DNA from: Candidatus Zipacnadia bacterium
Lineage (GTDB): Bacteria > Armatimonadota > Zipacnadia > Zipacnadales > UBA5352
Reading direction: 5' to 3'
Length of the DNA stretch: 33,252 bases
Assembly: GCA_029820295.1 (NCBI GenBank)
Contig: JALGVA010000045.1
Coordinates: forward strand, 1-33,252
Shown here: piece after piece, positions 1,949-19,225 of the stretch
Layout: the number at the start of each line of letters is the position of its first letter
Position numbering within the stretch: position 1 is the stretch's first letter
Position numbers and translations under genes: made by a program
The notes under the pieces: model-generated
Database searches by the model: none
What the model saw: the letters and a program-made list of their open reading frames with translations, nothing else
Told to the model about the DNA's origin: nothing

Positions 1949-3937
1949 ATGAACAGAGACACGATGGCAGTGGCCCTGGCCCTCGCGGGGCTGATGGCGG
2001 CGAACGTGGCGTGGGGCCTCGGTGGGGGGCCGCAGGTGGTGGGCGAGAACCTGGTGGTCAACGGCGGCTTCGAGGAGGGCGGTGAGGGGTGGAGTTCGGC
2101 GCTCGAGGTGGTCGATGAGGGCGCGTTTGACGGCGAGCGCTGCGGCGTGATCGACAACACCGCCGATGGTGAATCCAGGGGGATCGTGCAGGGCTTCATC
2201 CCGCTCAAGCCCTTCACCTACTACCGCTTCTCGATGGCCGCGCGGCGTGAGACCGGCCAGGGCTACGTCTACGTGCACTGCAACTGGTACGCCGCGCCCG
2301 GCGAGCGGCTGATGAGTTCGCCGCAGTGGTCGGCCGGGCGCGCCATGCCGGTCACGCTGCGCACCGGTGAGGGCCACGGCGACTGGCGCGAGTACTCCGG
2401 CGTCTTCCGCTCGAATCGAGCCGACCTGGGCGGCGTGCAGCTCGTGATCTTCATCCGCGACGGCGCCGACCGCGTCTACCTCGATGACGTGACGATCGAG
2501 GAGATCCGCTACCCGGACGCACCGGAATGGGAACTGCCCGACGCGGTGGTCTACGAGGGCCATCCGAGCCGCTTCGGCATGGCGGTCGAGGACGCCGCGC
2601 AGGACGGCCAGACCTTCACGGTCACCACCACCGGCGCGCGCTACGTCCTCGATGCGGCGGCCGGGAGCATGTCCTGCCGACAGCGCATCGGCGTCGACCG
2701 CGAGGTGGCGGTCGCCGACTTCGGTGGCCCGCTGGGCGAGCTGGCCATGGTCCACCGCGATGACGAAGTCTGCGTCCTGCAGGGCGAGGACCTGGCCATC
2801 GGCTTCCAGGGCGATTCGCTGGTGACCATCGCCACCAATCGGGACCTGCAGGTCGGTGTCACGTCACAGATCGGCGCGGAGTGGTTCCGGGCCCAGGAAC
2901 CCTACCTGTTGGCCATCGATCAGCAGGGCGGATTCTGTGTAATGCCGTGGTCGCGGCCGGAACTCAACTCGCCCGGCACCACCATGTCGGGCCCGGAGCA
3001 GGACACCGGCGAGCCGGGGTGGACCGCGAGCTGGCAGGTCGGCGCGCGCGAGATGTTCGCGCTGGCGGTCTTCCCCGGCCGCGAGTTCGACTGGGCGGAG
3101 TCGTTCGAGAAGCGCATCGTGTGCACGACAGTGCGTCCTGAACCTCGCTACCAACTGGAGGACGAGGCGCTGCGCGAATACGCGAAGCACGCGACCGTGC
3201 TCATGCTGTTCGCCGGCGTCTACGACCACGCGCCGCAGGGCTTCGAGCACGCGCCCTACAATGTGCGGGACCCGCAGAAGTTGAGTGACACCATTGCGCT
3301 GGCGCATGAGTTGGGGATGGAGGCGATCATCTACCGTCACCCGACCAGCTACGACTGGGTGAACCTGTCGCTGGACTACTTCCTCGAAGACCTGCGGGTG
3401 ACCCGTGGGCGCTACGGCTTCGACGGCTGGTACTTCGACGGCTACCCGCGGCTCGAGGACTGGATGGGCGGCTATCGGGCGATGCGCATCGTGCGCGACC
3501 GCGTGGGCGATGGCACGATCTACGTGCACTGCACGCTCAACCCGCCGGTGCGCATGACCGAGCTGTACTGCCCGTTCATCGACAGCTACGCGACCTTCCT
3601 GCTGCGCGCCGAGGCCCAGTTCATCGACGGCCCGAGCGATCCGTACCTGCGCTACGTGGTGAACACGCAGCACATCTCCAACACCATTGCGACCCTCAAG
3701 GGCAACGAGATGCGCGCGGCCGCGGGCTCGGAGGAGAAGGCGTCGCTGCGCCTGCAGCTCGAGACCATGCTCTCCCTCAACGGCCGTTGCCGCTGGGCCT
3801 ACCCGGGCTGGCCGCTGCGTGAGAGCGATCTGGACGACTACATCGGCTACTACTTCGCGGAACTCGACCGCATGGAGGCGCAGTGGCGCGCGACCGGCGA
3901 GCCCATCCCGATGACCTGGCGGCCGAGGGGCGAGTAG
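1949..3937 (+). CDS. Secreted CBM-containing glycoside hydrolase-like protein
   Basis: Exported 662-aa protein. Residues 1-23 form a signal peptide (charged MNRDT, Ala/Leu core, cleavage near VAWG). Residues ~30-185 look like a CBM4/9-type carbohydrate-binding jelly roll: they open with NLVVNGGFEEG and close with YLDDVTIEEI, both typical of that fold. A beta-rich middle is followed from ~400 by a TIM-barrel-like region with FDGWYFDGYP at ~490, where the Asp of YFDG is a plausible catalytic acid. The start has AGGAG seven bases upstream. It probably binds and attacks an external polysaccharide. I cannot assign a GH family, and catalysis is inferred from layout. It diverges from the DUF3604 gene and ends at TAG 3935-3937. 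Confidence 0.85.
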   Translation: MNRDTMAVALALAGLMAANVAWGLGGGPQVVGENLVVNGGFEEGGEGWSSALEVVDEGAFDGERCGVIDNTADGESRGIVQGFIPLKPFTYYRFSMAARRETGQGYVYVHCNWYAAPGERLMSSPQWSAGRAMPVTLRTGEGHGDWREYSGVFRSNRADLGGVQLVIFIRDGADRVYLDDVTIEEIRYPDAPEWELPDAVVYEGHPSRFGMAVEDAAQDGQTFTVTTTGARYVLDAAAGSMSCRQRIGVDREVAVADFGGPLGELAMVHRDDEVCVLQGEDLAIGFQGDSLVTIATNRDLQVGVTSQIGAEWFRAQEPYLLAIDQQGGFCVMPWSRPELNSPGTTMSGPEQDTGEPGWTASWQVGAREMFALAVFPGREFDWAESFEKRIVCTTVRPEPRYQLEDEALREYAKHATVLMLFAGVYDHAPQGFEHAPYNVRDPQKLSDTIALAHELGMEAIIYRHPTSYDWVNLSLDYFLEDLRVTRGRYGFDGWYFDGYPRLEDWMGGYRAMRIVRDRVGDGTIYVHCTLNPPVRMTELYCPFIDSYATFLLRAEAQFIDGPSDPYLRYVVNTQHISNTIATLKGNEMRAAAGSEEKASLRLQLETMLSLNGRCRWAYPGWPLRESDLDDYIGYYFAELDRMEAQWRATGEPIPMTWRPRGE

Positions 3938-3948
3938 CCCGCGGCAGG

Positions 3949-4077
3949 CTACGGGAGGCCGGTCGGCAGCGCCACGACCAACCCGCTGTCATCGCCGGTG
4001 ACGATGCACTCAGCGTCATGAGCCTGGCAGCATGCGGCGATCAGGCACATCGCGGCGACGAATCGTGGCGGTCGCAT
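3949..4077 (-). CDS. Short ORF with signal-peptide-like N-terminus, possibly a truncated gene
   Basis: A 42-codon minus-strand ORF starts MRPPRFVAAMCLIAACC and runs to TAG at 3949-3951. The first ~19 residues (two Arg, then an Ala/Met/Cys/Leu/Ile stretch) resemble an export signal. The rest, AHDAECIVTGDD onward, looks like the first strand of a secreted domain that then stops. It lies 24 bases beyond the small Cys-motif gene of the operon upstream. No good ribosome binding site is seen. It may be the stump of a deleted secreted-protein gene or simply chance. Confidence 0.3.
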   Translation of the reverse strand: MRPPRFVAAMCLIAACCQAHDAECIVTGDDSGLVVALPTGLP

Positions 4078-5738: not shown

Positions 5739-7067
5739 TCACAGCGGCAGGTCATCCTCGGCGTCGAACTCCGTCGAGACCCACCAGCCGCGGTTGAGCA
5801 GATAGTCCTCGACCTCGAACATCATCGGCGCGGCCTGCGCGGCCACCAGCCGGAACTCGCCGCTCAGGCGCACGGTGATGGCCCGGTTCGCCGAACGCCC
5901 GGCGAGCACCCAGCAGTCGTAGTCGCCGGCGGCCACCGCCGGCATCTGCAGCGGCTCACCGACCCCCGCGAAGGCCTGCGCCGGGCCGATCTCGCGCGCC
6001 GAATCGCCGACGAGCAGGCTCACGAGGTAGACGCCGTCCGGCGCTACCGGGATGAAGAACTCCGCCTCTCCGCTGACCGAGACGCCCTCGACGCGCTCGG
6101 GTTGAACGCCCGCGAAGCGCTCGTCGCGGGTGATGTCGCCGCCGTCGATGGCGCACGGCTCGAAGCCAGCGACCGGCGCGCCGAAGTTCAGACGAACGGT
6201 CGGCGCGTAGGGGTTGGTCCAGCGCACGTTGACCGCCGGGTGCACCTCGGCCACGGGCTCGGCGCGCGCGGGCGTCATCACCAGCTTGAATTCATGGAGG
6301 CCGCCGGTGCGGACCTTGCCGTCGGCGGAGTAGAGCCGCCAACCGTCACCACGGCGCAGGAGCGACCATGCGGGCGTAGCCCGGCAGATGCCCTGCCCCG
6401 GGCACCACGTGCCCTTGGGCGCGCAGTCGAAGTCTACCGCGCCGCCCGGCAGGTGCAGGCGCAGGTAGCGCAGGCTCCTGACGGACGTGACGCCCCCGGG
6501 GCCGAGGATTGCGCTCCAGGCCGAGTCCTCGCGCGTCGCCGCATCCGCGGGGCCGGGAGTGCCGAGGAACTGCGCGCGCACGCCGTCGATCAGCGCCGTC
6601 GGGAGCAGCACGCCCGCCGAGGTGACGCCGGTTACGTCCGGCTCAAGCAGCCGCATGTGCGTGATCTCGAGACGGTGGGCACGCGTGGCGATCTCCTGGC
6701 GCAGCTTCGAGCCGGGCTCGGCCAGCCAGCGATGATGGACCTGTGCCCAGCCCTCGGCCTCTATCTGCCAGGTGCGCGGCGCGCCCCCCGGTGCGGGCTC
6801 GACGATCATCCCGTCGATGATGCGCGTGCCCGCGAAGTCCACCTGCAGCGGCTCGACCGACGCGACGTCGATCTGCGCGTGGGCGAGGATGGCGGCGACG
6901 AGGATCATAGCGATTGAGAGACCCGTGGCGCGAACTCCGTGACATCCCGCCCAGGGGCGGGACCGGTGCGCCGTCCCGCAGCCCAGTGGGGCGACGAAAC
7001 GGCCGACGGGCAGGGACGCCCGTCGCACGGACCTGCGTCGCGTCTTGCGTGCGCGTGGCTCAGTCAT
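5739..7067 (-). CDS. Secreted protein with galactose-binding-like domain, function unknown
   Basis: Up to 442 aa. Residues ~46-66 (VRATGLSIAMILVAAILAHAQ) look like a signal peptide, followed by a beta-rich domain (~67-270) I do not recognise. Residues ~290-400 begin VRLNFGAPVAGFEP, resembling the galactose-binding-like modules next to many polysaccharide lyases and esterases. The ATG at 7067 overlaps the preceding gene's stop (ATGACTGA), which favours coupling. However, the first ~50 residues are an Arg-rich extension encoded by two perfect DNA hairpins (6945-6962 and 7004-7025), so this part may not be translated. The next ATG, at 6908, would leave only a 12-residue hydrophobic start. The gene end is firm; the start is not. 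Confidence 0.75.
   Translation of the reverse strand: MTEPRARKTRRRSVRRASLPVGRFVAPLGCGTAHRSRPWAGCHGVRATGLSIAMILVAAILAHAQIDVASVEPLQVDFAGTRIIDGMIVEPAPGGAPRTWQIEAEGWAQVHHRWLAEPGSKLRQEIATRAHRLEITHMRLLEPDVTGVTSAGVLLPTALIDGVRAQFLGTPGPADAATREDSAWSAILGPGGVTSVRSLRYLRLHLPGGAVDFDCAPKGTWCPGQGICRATPAWSLLRRGDGWRLYSADGKVRTGGLHEFKLVMTPARAEPVAEVHPAVNVRWTNPYAPTVRLNFGAPVAGFEPCAIDGGDITRDERFAGVQPERVEGVSVSGEAEFFIPVAPDGVYLVSLLVGDSAREIGPAQAFAGVGEPLQMPAVAAGDYDCWVLAGRSANRAITVRLSGEFRLVAAQAAPMMFEVEDYLLNRGWWVSTEFDAEDDLPL
6945..6962. repeat. Perfect 8-bp hairpin in the 5' part of the 5739-7067 gene
   Basis: TCCCGCCC and GGGCGGGA form a perfect 8-bp inverted repeat around a two-base loop AG. It lies within the doubtful N-terminal extension of the secreted protein gene. 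A structure this strong is commoner between genes than inside them. Confidence 0.5.
7004..7025. repeat. Second 8-bp hairpin near the operon junction
   Basis: CGACGGGC and GCCCGTCG pair perfectly around a six-base loop, about 35 bases downstream (in the minus-strand sense) of the glycoside hydrolase stop at 7060-7062. Without a T tract it is not a classical terminator; it could protect the upstream message or be a remnant of a dispersed palindrome. Confidence 0.45.
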
Positions 7068-9030
7068 AGGCCCACACCACCCCGTACGTCGCGAAGCTGC
7101 CGGCCGGGATGACCAGCACGCTGTGTTCGCCCTCGCGGGCCACCGGCAGCGCCACCGGCTCCGGCAGCTCCGGCGAGGCCAGCAGCGCCTCCGAGACCGC
7201 TCCGGGCAGGCGCATGGTCAGTTCCGGCAGCGGCGGCGTTGGCGGCGGGCTGTCGTGGTCGAACGCGATGGTGTCGCCCGGCTGCAGGTCGCGTCCGGTG
7301 CAGTTGAGCAGGTGGATCGCCCGCGCCGGCCGGCCGTCGCGCTCGGAGCGGTAAACCCACGAGAGCAGGCCGCGCCCCGCTCCGGTGACGCTGAAGCGCG
7401 GCGCGTCGCCGAGAGCGGTCGCGGCGCCCGCCTGAATGCGGGCGATCGCCTCAGGATCATCCGGGGGGATGAACCCACCGTCACGGTACTTGGCCGGAAG
7501 CTGGCTTTGCTCATACGCGTCCGGCCCGAGCTTCGCCGCCAGGTACCACACCTCACCCTCGCCGACGGCCCGCCGCGTAGGTGTCTTCGCGTCGGGCCGC
7601 GTGACGTCCGCCTCGGCGCGCAGCGGATCGGCCGAGGGATTGCCGTCGGCGTCGAGCGTCCCTGCCTCGCAGGTGAGCAGCAGTCGCCCGCCCGCGCGCA
7701 CGTAGTCCATGAGCGCCGCCTTCTGCTCGGGCGAGATCGCGGTGCAGTTGGGCAGCACGATGAGGCGGTAGCGGTCCAGCGCGCCCGGCTCGGTAAGCTC
7801 GCTCTCGATGATCACGCGCGTGGCGTAGTTGCCCAGCAGCAGTGCCTGCAGCCAGCCGTCGAACTCCTCCTGGAAGTACTCGAAATCGTAGCGCAGGTCG
7901 CGCGTGGTGGCCGACAGCAGCAGGCCGACGTCGGCGTCAAGCCGCGCGGTCTCGTCGTCCATCTGCCACGGCCACTGCAGCAGGTCCTGCGGGCGCGGGT
8001 CCTCGTTGGCGGGCTGCAGCGACCACCACAACGAATGCCCGCAGGCGCGGCCGAAGGCCCAGCAGAAGTATGCCGAGGGCCGCGTGATGTCGAACTTGGC
8101 CCACGCGGGCGTGCCTGTGGTCTCCGACAGGGCGCGTCGCTGGGCGAGCAGCATGGCCACGTAGGGGTAGCTGTCGAAGGGCACCGCATTCAGCTCGGTG
8201 CCGATGGTGTCCACCGATTGCACGCGCGAGGCGTAGTCGCCGCCGCGCGTCCACACATACGGCGAGGACTGCCCGGCGGTCGTGTAGTTGAACATGCGCA
8301 CGTCGGGGTTGACCGCCAGCAGGGCGTCGCGCACCTCGGCGCGGAAGTCATTGAGGCAGTCGCCACGCCAGTGCATCCACTCGCGGTACTGCGCGTCCGC
8401 CAGCGCGCGCTCGAAGAAGCCCGGGCCCTCGACCGCCGGGTAGGGGCGGCCCTTCTGCTCCCGCCACTTCGCCCGGCACCAGCGGCAGCCGCAGTAGCCG
8501 CGGCCCATCCACGAGATCTCGTCCATCTGCCATGCGTCCACTCCGGTGTCACGCTGGAAGCCGGTCGCCCAGTCGATGTAGAAGCGCCGGAACTCGGGGT
8601 TGTTGAAGCAGAAGATGCGGTGGCGCGTCATCATGTCGGCGGCGTGAAGCTGAAGCCAGTCGGGGTGTTGCCACGCCAGCGGGTAGGCATCGTAGTAGAC
8701 GATGGTCAGGTCCACGTGTTCGATGACGCGCAGGCCGTGGCGGTGGCAGGCCTCGACGATGGTGCGCGTGATGGCGCGCACATCGTCCCCGCGGTTCAGG
8801 AAGTTGAGGCGGAAGTGGTAGCCGCTGAGCATCACCGCGGTGTAGCCGGCGGCGGCGATCTCCGCGGCCTTCGCGTCGCAGTACTCAGGCGTGGCGGTGT
8901 AGTAGCGGTCGGCGTTGTTGCTGCCCGCCCACTGCGTGAACGCCATGTTCCAGGTCCAGTCGGCGGCGCCCGCGGGCAGGCACGCGACCAGCGCCAGCGC
9001 GGCGACTGCCGCCGCCGTTCCTCGGTTCAC
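7060..9030 (-). CDS. Secreted glycoside hydrolase-like protein with trimerisation-like domain
   Basis: Exported 656-aa protein, first gene of the operon. I chose the GTG at 9030 because GGAGGT stands eight bases upstream and the protein then begins with a signal peptide (VNRGTAAAVAALALVACLPAGAA). The open frame extends to 10080 but is not coding there. A TIM barrel follows: residues ~165-185 carry DAWQMDEISW and a Cys-rich turn (GYCGCRWCRAKW), a pattern seen in GH42-like beta-galactosidase relatives. Residues ~360-460, including RYRLIVLPNCTAISPEQ and YVRAGGRLLLTCEAG, resemble the beta-galactosidase trimerisation (glutamine-amidotransferase-like) domain. The C-terminus is beta-rich. Family-level function is likely; the sugar is unknown. 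Confidence 0.85.
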   Translation of the reverse strand: MNRGTAAAVAALALVACLPAGAADWTWNMAFTQWAGSNNADRYYTATPEYCDAKAAEIAAAGYTAVMLSGYHFRLNFLNRGDDVRAITRTIVEACHRHGLRVIEHVDLTIVYYDAYPLAWQHPDWLQLHAADMMTRHRIFCFNNPEFRRFYIDWATGFQRDTGVDAWQMDEISWMGRGYCGCRWCRAKWREQKGRPYPAVEGPGFFERALADAQYREWMHWRGDCLNDFRAEVRDALLAVNPDVRMFNYTTAGQSSPYVWTRGGDYASRVQSVDTIGTELNAVPFDSYPYVAMLLAQRRALSETTGTPAWAKFDITRPSAYFCWAFGRACGHSLWWSLQPANEDPRPQDLLQWPWQMDDETARLDADVGLLLSATTRDLRYDFEYFQEEFDGWLQALLLGNYATRVIIESELTEPGALDRYRLIVLPNCTAISPEQKAALMDYVRAGGRLLLTCEAGTLDADGNPSADPLRAEADVTRPDAKTPTRRAVGEGEVWYLAAKLGPDAYEQSQLPAKYRDGGFIPPDDPEAIARIQAGAATALGDAPRFSVTGAGRGLLSWVYRSERDGRPARAIHLLNCTGRDLQPGDTIAFDHDSPPPTPPLPELTMRLPGAVSEALLASPELPEPVALPVAREGEHSVLVIPAGSFATYGVVWAYD

Positions 9031-9129: not shown

Positions 9130-9870
9130 ATGATCATCGACTCGCACGTTCACCTCAAGCACGGCGACGCGGCCGCGACCGAGTACACGCCCGAGCAGAT
9201 CGTCGAGGTGATGGACGCGGCCGGGATCGACCGCTCGGTGGTCTTCGCCATGTCCACTACCACGCGGCGCTCGATCGAGATGGCCCGCGACGCCGTCGAG
9301 CGTTTCCCGGATCGGCTGATCCCCTACGTCTACGCGCTGCCCAGTTACGAGCGACCGGTCATCGAGGAGCTGCGCGAGGCCATCGCAGGGCTGGGCTTCC
9401 GCGGCATCAAGCTGCACATCGGCGAGTGCCGGCTGCGCGAGTACATCGCCGACCCGGTCTTCGCGCTCGTGGGGGAGCTGGGCGTCCCATGTCTGATCGA
9501 TCTCGGCGGCGACCTCGCCACCGGGGAGCGCATCGCGGCGGCGTTTCCGCAGACGAAGCTGATCTACGCGCACTTCGGCCGCTATCTGTGCACCGACGCG
9601 ACGCTGATCCGCAGCTTCATCGCCCTGGCGGACGCGCACCCGAACGTGTGGCTGGACGCCACCGGCGTGGTTCTGGACTGGACCATCTCCGAGGCCGTGC
9701 GGCGCCTCGGCGCCGAGCGCGTCATCTTCGGCACCGATGGCCCGCACCCGGCGCCGACACTGACGGAGATGGCGCGCAACTCCATCCGGCAGATCGAGAT
9801 GCTGGACATCTCCGAGGAAGAGAAGGCGATGGTGCTGGGGGGGAGCGTCGCGCAGTTGCTGGGGCTGTGA
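9130..9870 (+). CDS. Amidohydrolase-2-type TIM-barrel metal-dependent hydrolase
   Basis: Cytoplasmic protein of 246 aa, typical length for short amidohydrolase_2 proteins. Metal-site motifs are present in order: DSHVHL (H6, H8), GIKLHIG, YAHFGRY and FGTDGP (Asp near 202). The usual mid-barrel His position reads CLIDLGG instead, so one ligand may differ. The ATG was chosen because GGAGG lies eight bases upstream and HxH follows at once, as in the family. The family includes hydrolases and decarboxylases acting on small cyclic or carboxylated compounds; which applies here cannot be told. It diverges from the glycoside hydrolase operon. Confidence 0.87.
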   Translation: MIIDSHVHLKHGDAAATEYTPEQIVEVMDAAGIDRSVVFAMSTTTRRSIEMARDAVERFPDRLIPYVYALPSYERPVIEELREAIAGLGFRGIKLHIGECRLREYIADPVFALVGELGVPCLIDLGGDLATGERIAAAFPQTKLIYAHFGRYLCTDATLIRSFIALADAHPNVWLDATGVVLDWTISEAVRRLGAERVIFGTDGPHPAPTLTEMARNSIRQIEMLDISEEEKAMVLGGSVAQLLGL

Positions 9871-16607: not shown

Positions 16608-17369
16608 ATGGAGCTGTTCGACTGCAACTGCTGGTACGGCGTGCCCAAGACGCCACCACTGGCGCCTGCTGAGACCGTCGATGACCTGCTGGGCGAGCTG
16701 GGGCGGGCGGGCATCGGGCGGGCGCTGGTGCGCAACGCCGCCATCTGGGAGGAATCGCCTGAGGTGGGCAACGCGCTGACCACCGCCGACTGCGCGCGCG
16801 ATGAGCGCCTGGAGGCGGCCTGGGGCATCCTGCCGCCGCACACGGGCGAGCTGGGCGACGTGCACGAGTTCCTGGACGCCATGCGCGCGGCCGGCGTGCG
16901 CGCCCTGTGGGCCTATCCGGCGAAGCACCGCTACCTGCTCAACGCCACCGCGATGGGCGGGATGCTCGAGGAGATGCAGGACCGCGGCATCCCGCTCTTC
17001 CTGCACCGGCGCGAGATGCCGGGCGCGCAGGAGACCTATGCGGTCGCCGAACAGGTGTTGGCCGACTTCCCGCGCCTGCACCTGGTCATCGTCGCACACG
17101 GGAGCTGGGGCGAGGACCGGCTGTTCCGGCCGATGATGGCCCGTTACCCTAGCTTCGCGGTCGGTACTTCGCGCTATGAGCTGGACGGCGGCATCGAGGA
17201 CCTGTGCCGCACCCTCGGCCCCGAGCGCCTGCTCTTCGGCACCAACTTCCCGGAGACGCCCATGGGTGGGCCGATCCTCACGCTCCTGCACGCCGCCATC
17301 AGCGACGAGGAGCGCGAGCTGATCGCTGGCGGCAACCTGCGCCGGATACTCGAGGAGGTGCGGCTGTGA
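16608..17369 (+). CDS. Amidohydrolase-fold protein lacking the usual metal ligands
   Basis: Protein of 253 aa with an amidohydrolase_2-type TIM-barrel pattern but a changed active site. The family HxH is replaced by D5-C6-N7-C8 (MELFDCNCWYG). The mid-barrel region reads LFLHRREM, a later element is IVAHGSWGEDR, and the catalytic Asp is Asn (FGTNFP, N213). It may be inactive, or bind a different metal through the cysteines. Its stop overlaps the GTG of the next gene, an amidohydrolase with intact motifs, so the two are probably translated together and may form a complex. It is the first gene of the plus-strand operon. Fold assignment is fairly sure; activity is not. Confidence 0.83.
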   Translation: MELFDCNCWYGVPKTPPLAPAETVDDLLGELGRAGIGRALVRNAAIWEESPEVGNALTTADCARDERLEAAWGILPPHTGELGDVHEFLDAMRAAGVRALWAYPAKHRYLLNATAMGGMLEEMQDRGIPLFLHRREMPGAQETYAVAEQVLADFPRLHLVIVAHGSWGEDRLFRPMMARYPSFAVGTSRYELDGGIEDLCRTLGPERLLFGTNFPETPMGGPILTLLHAAISDEERELIAGGNLRRILEEVRL

Positions 17370-18202
17370 TCAACGACACCCGCCTGGCCGAGGAGTTCGT
17401 CGCACATGGCCGCGTCGATGACTGCCCGGTGATCGACACTCACGCGCACTTCGGGCCCTACCAGGCGATCTACTTTCCGCGCTGGCGGCCCGAACGCGTG
17501 CTCGACACCATGGACCGCTGCAACGTGCGCTGGCTGATCATGTCCGCTCACGCCGCGCTCGTGGACACCGCACGCGGCAACCGCGAGGTCGCCGAGATCG
17601 TTGCGGCCCACCCGGACCGCATCCGCGGCTACTGGGTGATCAACCCGAACTACCCCGAGCGCCTGCAGCGGGAACTCGACGAGTTCGATGCCCACGCGCA
17701 GACCCCGGGACAGGCCTCGAGCCCGCCGGCCTTCGTGGGCTTCAAGTTTCACCCGAACCAGCACGGCGTGCCGCTCAATGACGAGCGCTACCATCCCGCG
17801 CTGGAGTACGCCGATGCGCGCGGGCTGCCGATCCTCTCGCATACCTGGGCGGGGCGCGGGATGAGCAGCCACGCTGAGGTGCGCGAGGTCGCCGAACGCT
17901 TCCCGAATGTGCGGCTGCTCATGGGCCACGCCGGCTACGGCGACTGGGAAGAGTCGGCGAAGGTCGCGCGCGACCACGAGCACGTCTACCTGGAGCTGAC
18001 CGCGGCCTACTCGGTGCGCGGGGCGCTGGAGATCATGGTCGAGCACGCCGGCAGCGAGAAGATCCTGTTCGGCACCGACCACCCGTGGTTCGACCCGCAC
18101 TACGGCATCGGCTGCATCCTGTCTGCCTACATGACCGACGAGGATCGGCGCAACATCCTGCACCGCAACGCGGAGCGGCTGTTCGGCCTGCCGCTGGATT
18201 GA
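17366..18202 (+). CDS. Amidohydrolase-2-type hydrolase with intact metal motifs
   Basis: Protein of 278 aa. The frame is open from 17204, but the GTG at 17366, overlapping the previous stop (GTGA) with GAGGAGG seven bases upstream, is the evident start. Motifs in order: VIDTHAHFG (H26, H28), GFKFHPNQHG, ILSHTWAGRG, LMGHAGYGD and FGTDHPWFDP (Asp near 238), so all expected metal ligands are present. Related enzymes hydrolyse or decarboxylate small carboxylated or lactone-like substrates. The coupling to a motif-less paralogue suggests a heteromer. A 12-bp hairpin begins within its stop codon. The substrate cannot be predicted. Confidence 0.87.
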   Translation: MINDTRLAEEFVAHGRVDDCPVIDTHAHFGPYQAIYFPRWRPERVLDTMDRCNVRWLIMSAHAALVDTARGNREVAEIVAAHPDRIRGYWVINPNYPERLQRELDEFDAHAQTPGQASSPPAFVGFKFHPNQHGVPLNDERYHPALEYADARGLPILSHTWAGRGMSSHAEVREVAERFPNVRLLMGHAGYGDWEESAKVARDHEHVYLELTAAYSVRGALEIMVEHAGSEKILFGTDHPWFDPHYGIGCILSAYMTDEDRRNILHRNAERLFGLPLD

Positions 18203-18245: not shown

Positions 18246-19225
18246 ATGGAGATGCGCAGACTGGGACGAAGCGGCCTTGAGGTCAGCACGCTGGGACTGG
18301 GAACCTGGGCGGCGGGCGGGCCGAGCACTCACGGCGGCCTGCAGTCGGGCTGAGGGTTCGTCGATGACCGCGAGCTGGTGCCGGCCATGGAGCGGGGACT
18401 GGCGATGGGCGTGAACCTCATCGACACCGCCGACGCCTGCGGCTGCGGGCATTGCGAACGCCTGATCAGCGAGGTCATCCGCGGCCGCCGCGACCAGGTC
18501 ATCGTCGCGACCAGGTTCGGCTTCGAGTACGACGAGGAGCGCGTCGAGATCCGGGGCGAGCGCGGCGACCGCGAGTATGTGCGCGAGGCCTGCGAGAAGA
18601 GCCTGCAGCGCCTGCGCACCGACTACATCGACCTCTACCAGTTCCACCTGGGGGGTACGACGGCGACGCCGAGGAGACCCGAGACGCGCTTGAGGAGCTG
18701 GTCGACGAGGGCAAGATCCGCTGGTACGGCTGGAGCACCGACGATCCGGCGCGGGCGCGCGTCTTCGCCGCGGGCGAGCACTGCTGCGCGGTCCGGCAGA
18801 GCCTGTCGGTGCTGGGCGGGAGCTGGGAGACGCTGCGCGTCGCCCATGAGGAGGACCTCGCGTCGCTCAACCGCGGCCCGCTGGTCAAGGGCCTGCTCAC
18901 CGGCAAGTTCAGCCACGAGTCGACCTTCGCCGACAACGACAACCGGTGCCGCTGGGACCTCAGGTCCGGCACGCAGGCCGAGCAGCTCGAGATGTTCGGG
19001 CAGATCCGCGACGTGTTGACCGGCGACGGGCGCACCGTCGCGCAGGGCGCGTTGTGCTGGCTGTGGGGGCTCAGCGACCGCAGGCTGCCCATCTTGGGCT
19101 TCAAGACCGTGCGGCAGGTGGAGGAGCACGCGGGCGCCATGGAGTTCGGGCCGCTCCCTGCGGCGCAGATGGACCAGACCGACGAGATCCTGGGCCGCGA
19201 CCCGGCCTACCGCGACCTGCCCTGA
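18246..19225 (+). pseudogene. Broken aldo/keto reductase gene (stop plus frameshift)
   Basis: The reading starts MEMRRLGRSGLEVSTLGLGTW, a normal aldo/keto reductase opening, with a ribosome binding site before it. TGA at 18351-18353 interrupts it at a place where relatives usually have Trp (QSG-stop-GFVDDRE). The frame continues through NLIDTADACGCGHCE to DLYQFHLGG, then shifts at a run of six G (18650-18655); one extra G would restore reading into YDGDAEETRDALEEL and through GKIRWYGWSTDD to the TGA at 19223. Two catalytic positions are also changed: the usual Tyr of DTAxxYG is Cys, and the Lys of ATKxG is Arg (VATRFG). With a nonsense change, a frameshift and lost catalytic residues, decay is the simplest reading, though sequencing error could explain the first two. 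Confidence 0.75.

Follow-up and report, generated by a model that had tools for sequence, protein, structure and literature searches.

A degenerate amidohydrolase gene overlapping an intact paralogue in Candidatus Zipacnadia: a probable non-catalytic partner subunit found across the Armatimonadota

The overlapping gene pair and its surroundings

The window (the whole stretch of DNA analysed here, 33,252 nucleotides of contig JALGVA010000045.1 from a Candidatus Zipacnadia bacterium) carries two overlapping open reading frames, here called A and B (Table 1; 16608-18202 together). An earlier note on this DNA had read them as an overlapping amidohydrolase pair, and both indeed match PF04909 (Amidohydro_2) above the Pfam cut-off of 26.4 bits, gene A with 62.8 bits (E-value 5.7e-17) and gene B with 113.8 bits (E-value 1.6e-32). 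The gene A match begins only at profile position 44 and so lacks the HxH part; 64 of 68 gene A relatives also match this family (E <= 0.001). A search of NCBIfam gave no family fitting either gene. As the note had also stated, the second gene starts inside the stop of the first, the start of B and the stop of A sharing the 4 bp GTGA, and the Shine-Dalgarno-like GAGGAGG lies within the final codons of A. Gene B has an N-terminal extension of ~20 residues, which is typical of such partners. A scan for promoters and terminators found nothing.

Just 3′ of the pair lies an aldo/keto reductase-like gene (18246-19225, + strand) that is broken, being interrupted by an in-frame TGA near 18351 and changing frame near 18655; this is either an assembly error or a pseudogene. 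A third PF04909 gene is present in the window (9130-9870, + strand); its HxH is intact and it has no degenerate neighbour.

Table 1. Features of the amidohydrolase pair in the window
Feature	Position	Strand	Evidence or remark
Gene A, degenerate Amidohydro_2 barrel (probable pseudo-subunit), 253 aa	16608..17369	+	ATG start; PF04909 match, AlphaFold2
Gene B, intact Amidohydro_2 metal-dependent enzyme, 278 aa	17366..18202	+	GTG start; PF04909 match, ligands
Junction	17352..17369	+	Shine-Dalgarno-like GAGGAGG 17352-17358, then GTGA 17366-17369
Arg171 codon of gene A	17118..17120	+	Start of helix after strand 6; kept in 140/144 paired pseudo-subunits

Active-site residues

Gene B has all the motifs, as had been claimed for it: His26 and His28 (the HxH of DTHAH), Lys127, His159, His188 and Asp238 are all present, among them the five metal or catalytic ligands of an amidohydrolase-2 enzyme (HxH, His, His, Asp). 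Gene A does not have this set. When IDTHAHFG of gene B is aligned with FDCNCWYG of gene A, Asn7 and Trp9 fall at the HxH positions (which thus read N-C-W), and Asn213 stands in place of the catalytic Asp. The earlier note had the Asn right, but its Cys-Asn-Cys in place of His-x-His was a register error: Cys6 and Cys8 align with the T and the A of DTHAH, which are not ligand positions. Its statement that the first gene lacks metal ligands holds for the HxH and the Asp but not for the two other His, since His133 (strand 5) and His164 (strand 6) are still present in the window copy.

The same asymmetry runs through 144 A/B pairs with good scores, on which the following residue counts are based. 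B domains have H26 and H28 in 144/144, K127 in 142/144 and H159 in 139/144, while H188 and D238 are found in every ungapped case (141/141 and 135/135, respectively); all five ligands occur together in 132/144. No A domain has more than two of the five, and 100/144 have none. The commonest residues at the ligand positions of A are N (90, the Asn7 of the window copy), C (19) and H (13); M (30), R (27) and Y (14); D (64), C (18) and E (15); T (23), H (22) and V (18); and G (59), N (24) and A (15). It is very likely indeed that gene A has no metal-dependent catalytic activity.

Other residues of A are strongly kept. D5, G11, N55, G204 and P215 are conserved at 98-99%, R207 at 96% and E81 at 92%. 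Equivalents of D5, G11 and N55 occur in intact members (in B, D24 for D5 and N72 for N55). R171, in contrast, has no conserved counterpart in B and is invariant among 68 aligned split A proteins; B itself has an Arg 10-11 residues past H188 in 54 of the 144 pairs.

Pairing and fusion of A and B

The genome from which the window comes (5.63 Mb) has 41 PF04909 matches, many of them in tandem. Six are A-type degenerate genes (C39, which is the window copy, and C120, C146, C288, C170 and C185), and every one of them is followed directly by an intact B-type gene. The pairs C170 and C185 are each a single open frame of about 535 aa; among the split pairs, C39, C120 and C288 have a 4-bp overlap, and the genes of C146 abut. 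The genes flanking the paralogous pairs differ from pair to pair, and no functional hint was found among them. The same genome also has a very divergent degenerate/intact pair (C56; L034:2531-3334 and 3334-4062, with IDVNTCFG and IDMHAHIG, respectively), whose junction overlaps like that of the window pair and whose members form long branches in the tree discussed below. A second degenerate type, e.g. VDLNAYLGHWPFRR, occurs at C192 (L035:2494-3276) and C16 (L032:4205-5008), where it follows an intact gene.

Among close relatives the profile for A has matches in 41/41 genomes searched, and phylum-wide in 73/291 genomes at E <= 1e-30; named relatives of one fused pair belong to Candidatus Zipacnadia, candidate division WS1 and Armatimonadetes MAGs. 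The A domains first compiled numbered 114; the partner is fused to 56 of them and directly follows another 49. When other Armatimonadota classes were added the set grew to 166 A domains, four of them at contig edges, and B is directly downstream in 148 of the 162 that are not (75 adjacent, 73 fused). The reverse comparison gives the same picture, with A directly upstream of 100 of 107 B-clade genes in 41 genomes; the other seven include three at contig starts and two (G010 and G020) with an unlinked A. Conservation of the pair in other genomes, which the earlier note had named as a check, is therefore borne out in both directions, and, because six such pairs are present in one genome and the pairing extends across the phylum, the arrangement in the window is not a chance juxtaposition.

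The exceptions are few. The partner is upstream in 8/166 A domains, six of which are of a type with the motif NAYLGHWPFR, and 6/166 A domains are single. Four of these six have a strong B ~2 kb downstream, past an inserted gene, and the remaining two belong to a family (f2) with B-type genes elsewhere in the genome. The inserted gene (loci L222, L223, L190 and L196), on either side of which A and B nonetheless stay together, was named by eye from its sequence as a ~700-aa glycosidase-like gene in L222 and as a DNA-methyltransferase-like gene in L190. In family f2 (L115 = G010, L141 = G015, and G020), A and B are unlinked or lie at contig ends, which makes it a natural test of the need for A-B linkage. 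The NAYLGHWPFR proteins constitute the second degenerate subfamily (L228-L257), with an amidohydrolase directly upstream in 29/30 loci, so that the gene order is opposite to that of A and B.

A tblastn search of plasmid records with A found such pairs outside the phylum: a Subdoligranulum plasmid has A then B in overlapping frames, and a plasmid of the haloarchaeon Halomontanus rarus encodes a fused A-B protein, which lacks R171. On the latter plasmid the degenerate-intact fusion lies beside a reversed, intact-degenerate fusion (L226:4986-6611 and 6685-8373), and both are annotated merely as amidohydrolase family protein.

Selection, co-divergence and phylogeny

Orthologue comparisons gave dN/dS values of about 0.14-0.28 (A) and 0.11-0.31 (B), and A is therefore maintained by purifying selection, like B. 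All seven close orthologues compared share one junction layout, in which the final codons of A contain an AGGAGG-type motif and GTGA or ATGA follows. A mirror-tree comparison of the A and B distance matrices gave r = 0.90, whereas re-pairing paralogues within genomes gave 0.14 ± 0.03 (the maximum of 1000 shuffles was 0.27), and the true partner was recovered from the A and B distances in 104/113 cases against 31 expected. A and B thus evolve as a unit; this does not in itself show binding, since physical linkage alone can produce co-divergence.

A tree of 106 domains is divided by a branch with support 100/99: the degenerate domains (A, the NAYLGHWPFR type and the A half of C56) are all on one side of it and the intact domains are all on the other. 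This grouping is not an artefact of the ligand columns, as the degenerate clade survives their removal with support 98. Nor is A a recent local duplicate of its partner, since A genes from different genomes are closer to one another than to the B genes that they accompany. Because all of the degenerates form one clade, the dead lineage is old and probably arose once; its two types now lie on opposite sides of their partners.

Predicted structure

An AlphaFold2 model of the natural C170 fusion (538 residues, built with 53 fused sequences) has two packed barrels, with pLDDT 95.4 and pTM 0.93; a pTM this high over the whole fusion requires that the barrels be confidently positioned with respect to each other, in addition to being well modelled individually. 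Gene A modelled alone gave pLDDT 96.5 and pTM 0.94. In the latter model R171 is the second residue of a helix (170-179) that follows strand 159-162, seven residues past the strand-6 His position.

Foldseek searches with the fusion and with A place them nearest, among solved structures, to the amidohydrolase-2 decarboxylases, 3cjp and 3irs. The closest structure to A is BB4693, an uncharacterized protein (PDB 3irs and 3k4w; TM-score 0.79 by query, 19% identity). Like A it is short of ligands, with no strand-5 His and with Ala (FGTAYP) for the catalytic Asp, but unlike A it has no known partner or function. The top matches of both queries, ACMSD and the gamma-resorcylate and 5-carboxyvanillate decarboxylases, share the fold and also belong to PF04909. 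ACMSD is dimeric and cannot do without Arg239, which the neighbouring subunit supplies (PMC11650718), and the match list includes PDB 4ifk, whose title concerns that residue. In the human ACMSD PDB chain the corresponding Arg is 11 residues past the strand-6 His, about one helical turn from the position of R171. Given this offset the two may not be equivalent, although equivalence is plausible. ACMSD, however, pairs identical metal-bearing subunits, whereas here one partner has lost its metal site, the partners belong to separate clades, and they are often fused.

Function of the degenerate protein

The explanation that we consider probable is that gene A encodes a non-catalytic paralogue which, through coupled translation, joins the amidohydrolase encoded by gene B in an obligate 1:1 complex, and completes or shapes the active site of the latter. 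The physical complex is, taken separately, highly probable. A heteromer with a non-catalytic pseudo-subunit had been suggested in the earlier note, and it appears well supported by pair conservation, natural fusions, co-divergence and the confident two-barrel model; because A and B are kept together throughout the phylum, in many cases as one protein, the inactive member is probably an integral functional component of the active enzyme. In such a complex B would perform the metal chemistry at its site of HxH, Lys, His, His and Asp, and A would replace one half of the usual amidohydrolase-2 dimer. The most likely route by which A might contribute is that its Arg171 reaches into the site of B and binds a carboxylate of the substrate, as Arg239 does in ACMSD, so that the metal would be kept by B and the Arg by A, which has lost the metal. 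We infer this role in trans, the carboxylate class of substrate and the association of the separately encoded proteins by analogy and from the fused relatives, in many of which A and B would make up a pseudo-dimer within one polypeptide; for the action of Arg171 in trans the odds seem to us somewhat under even. The offset of Arg171 from the ACMSD Arg, the Arg that 54 of the partners carry themselves, the lack of R171 in the haloarchaeal fusion and the unlinked A and B of family f2 count against this explanation or parts of it.

Gene A could instead be a ligand-sensing regulatory subunit, with a metabolite bound in the emptied barrel and B under its allosteric control. In the model the fold of the barrel is intact, the former metal pocket has diversified as expected for varied ligands, and the A paralogues co-diverge with the B paralogues; against this, no single conserved pocket residue points to a common ligand, and fusion into one chain and near-universal pairing suit a structural role equally well. 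We regard sensing as unlikely.

A second enzyme, with A carrying out one step by metal-independent chemistry and B the next, is more doubtful still. LigI is a metal-independent lactonase of the amidohydrolase superfamily, bifunctional fused enzymes are common, and a few polar residues of A (R171, E81, D5, N55 and R207) are near-invariant. The inner-barrel positions of A, however, drift strongly even in near relatives (H, D, N, R, P and Q all occur at position 133 among the closest), unlike those of a conserved active site, and D5 and N55, given their counterparts in intact members, look structural.

The cysteine-based metal site that the earlier note offered as its other possibility is very improbable and was rejected on register and conservation. 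The Cys and Asn positions, on whose free variation among homologues the note had made its proposal depend, are steady in the 13 closest copies (Cys6 and Asn7 in 13/13, Cys8 in 10/13, together with His164 in 12/13) but vary across the family of 144 pairs, where position 6 is Cys in 75 and Ala in 48, and position 8 Cys in 71 and Ala in 50. Moreover, these Cys flank the ligand positions and are expected to point out of the barrel, and intact partners often have Cys at the same places (DCHGH, DAHCH). Finally, that A is a duplicate undergoing decay into a pseudogene, as its lost catalytic residues might suggest, can be dismissed on its dN/dS of about 0.2 (as in B), the retention of its reading frame at about 150 loci, and its membership of an ancient clade with no sign of being a recent copy of the partner.

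Comparison with known enzyme/pseudoenzyme pairs

A non-catalytic complex partner of the kind we favour for gene A has precedents. In the Pseudomonas ATCase-pDHO complex an inactive pseudo-dihydroorotase of the amidohydrolase superfamily is needed for the activity of its partner, and the zinc ligands are missing from the homologous pDHO domain of yeast (PMC7053772); that partner is an unrelated transcarbamoylase, whereas here it is a paralogue of the pseudoenzyme. In the trypanosomatid prozymes (AdoMetDC-prozyme and the deoxyhypusine synthase pair) a dead paralogue binds and activates the live enzyme (PMC5201418, PMC3663545). Here, similarly, a dead paralogue is kept beside a live one under purifying selection. 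The prozymes differ in that the enzymes are unrelated to those described here and that activation was measured; the present pairs are known from sequence, number up to six in parallel per genome, and are fused in about half of the cases. Dead/live enzyme pairs are thus already known, but we found no description in the open-access literature of paired or fused live/dead amidohydrolases in the amidohydrolase-2 family, and as far as that literature shows such pairing is new there; the paper naming the class Zipacnadia (PMC10290634) does not mention amidohydrolases.

The pairs may, as a tentative proposal, constitute an undescribed two-component class of amidohydrolases in the Armatimonadota with outliers in Bacillota and haloarchaea, in which members of an ancient dead clade would provide their partners from a live clade with a catalytic Arg in trans. 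On this view A and B would have been multiplied together and diversified to many substrate specificities, in both gene orders and in split, overlapping and fused forms. Both halves are at present named simply amidohydrolase, which calls for caution in annotation, and the intact half expressed alone may give an inactive protein. Activating dead paralogues are known from few cases; the present series of about 150 diverged enzyme/pseudoenzyme pairs lies within one superfamily, occurs split, overlapping and fused and in two gene orders, offers a clear candidate residue, and makes it possible to test how the tasks of a homodimer come to be shared out between a subunit that holds the metal and one that assists it.
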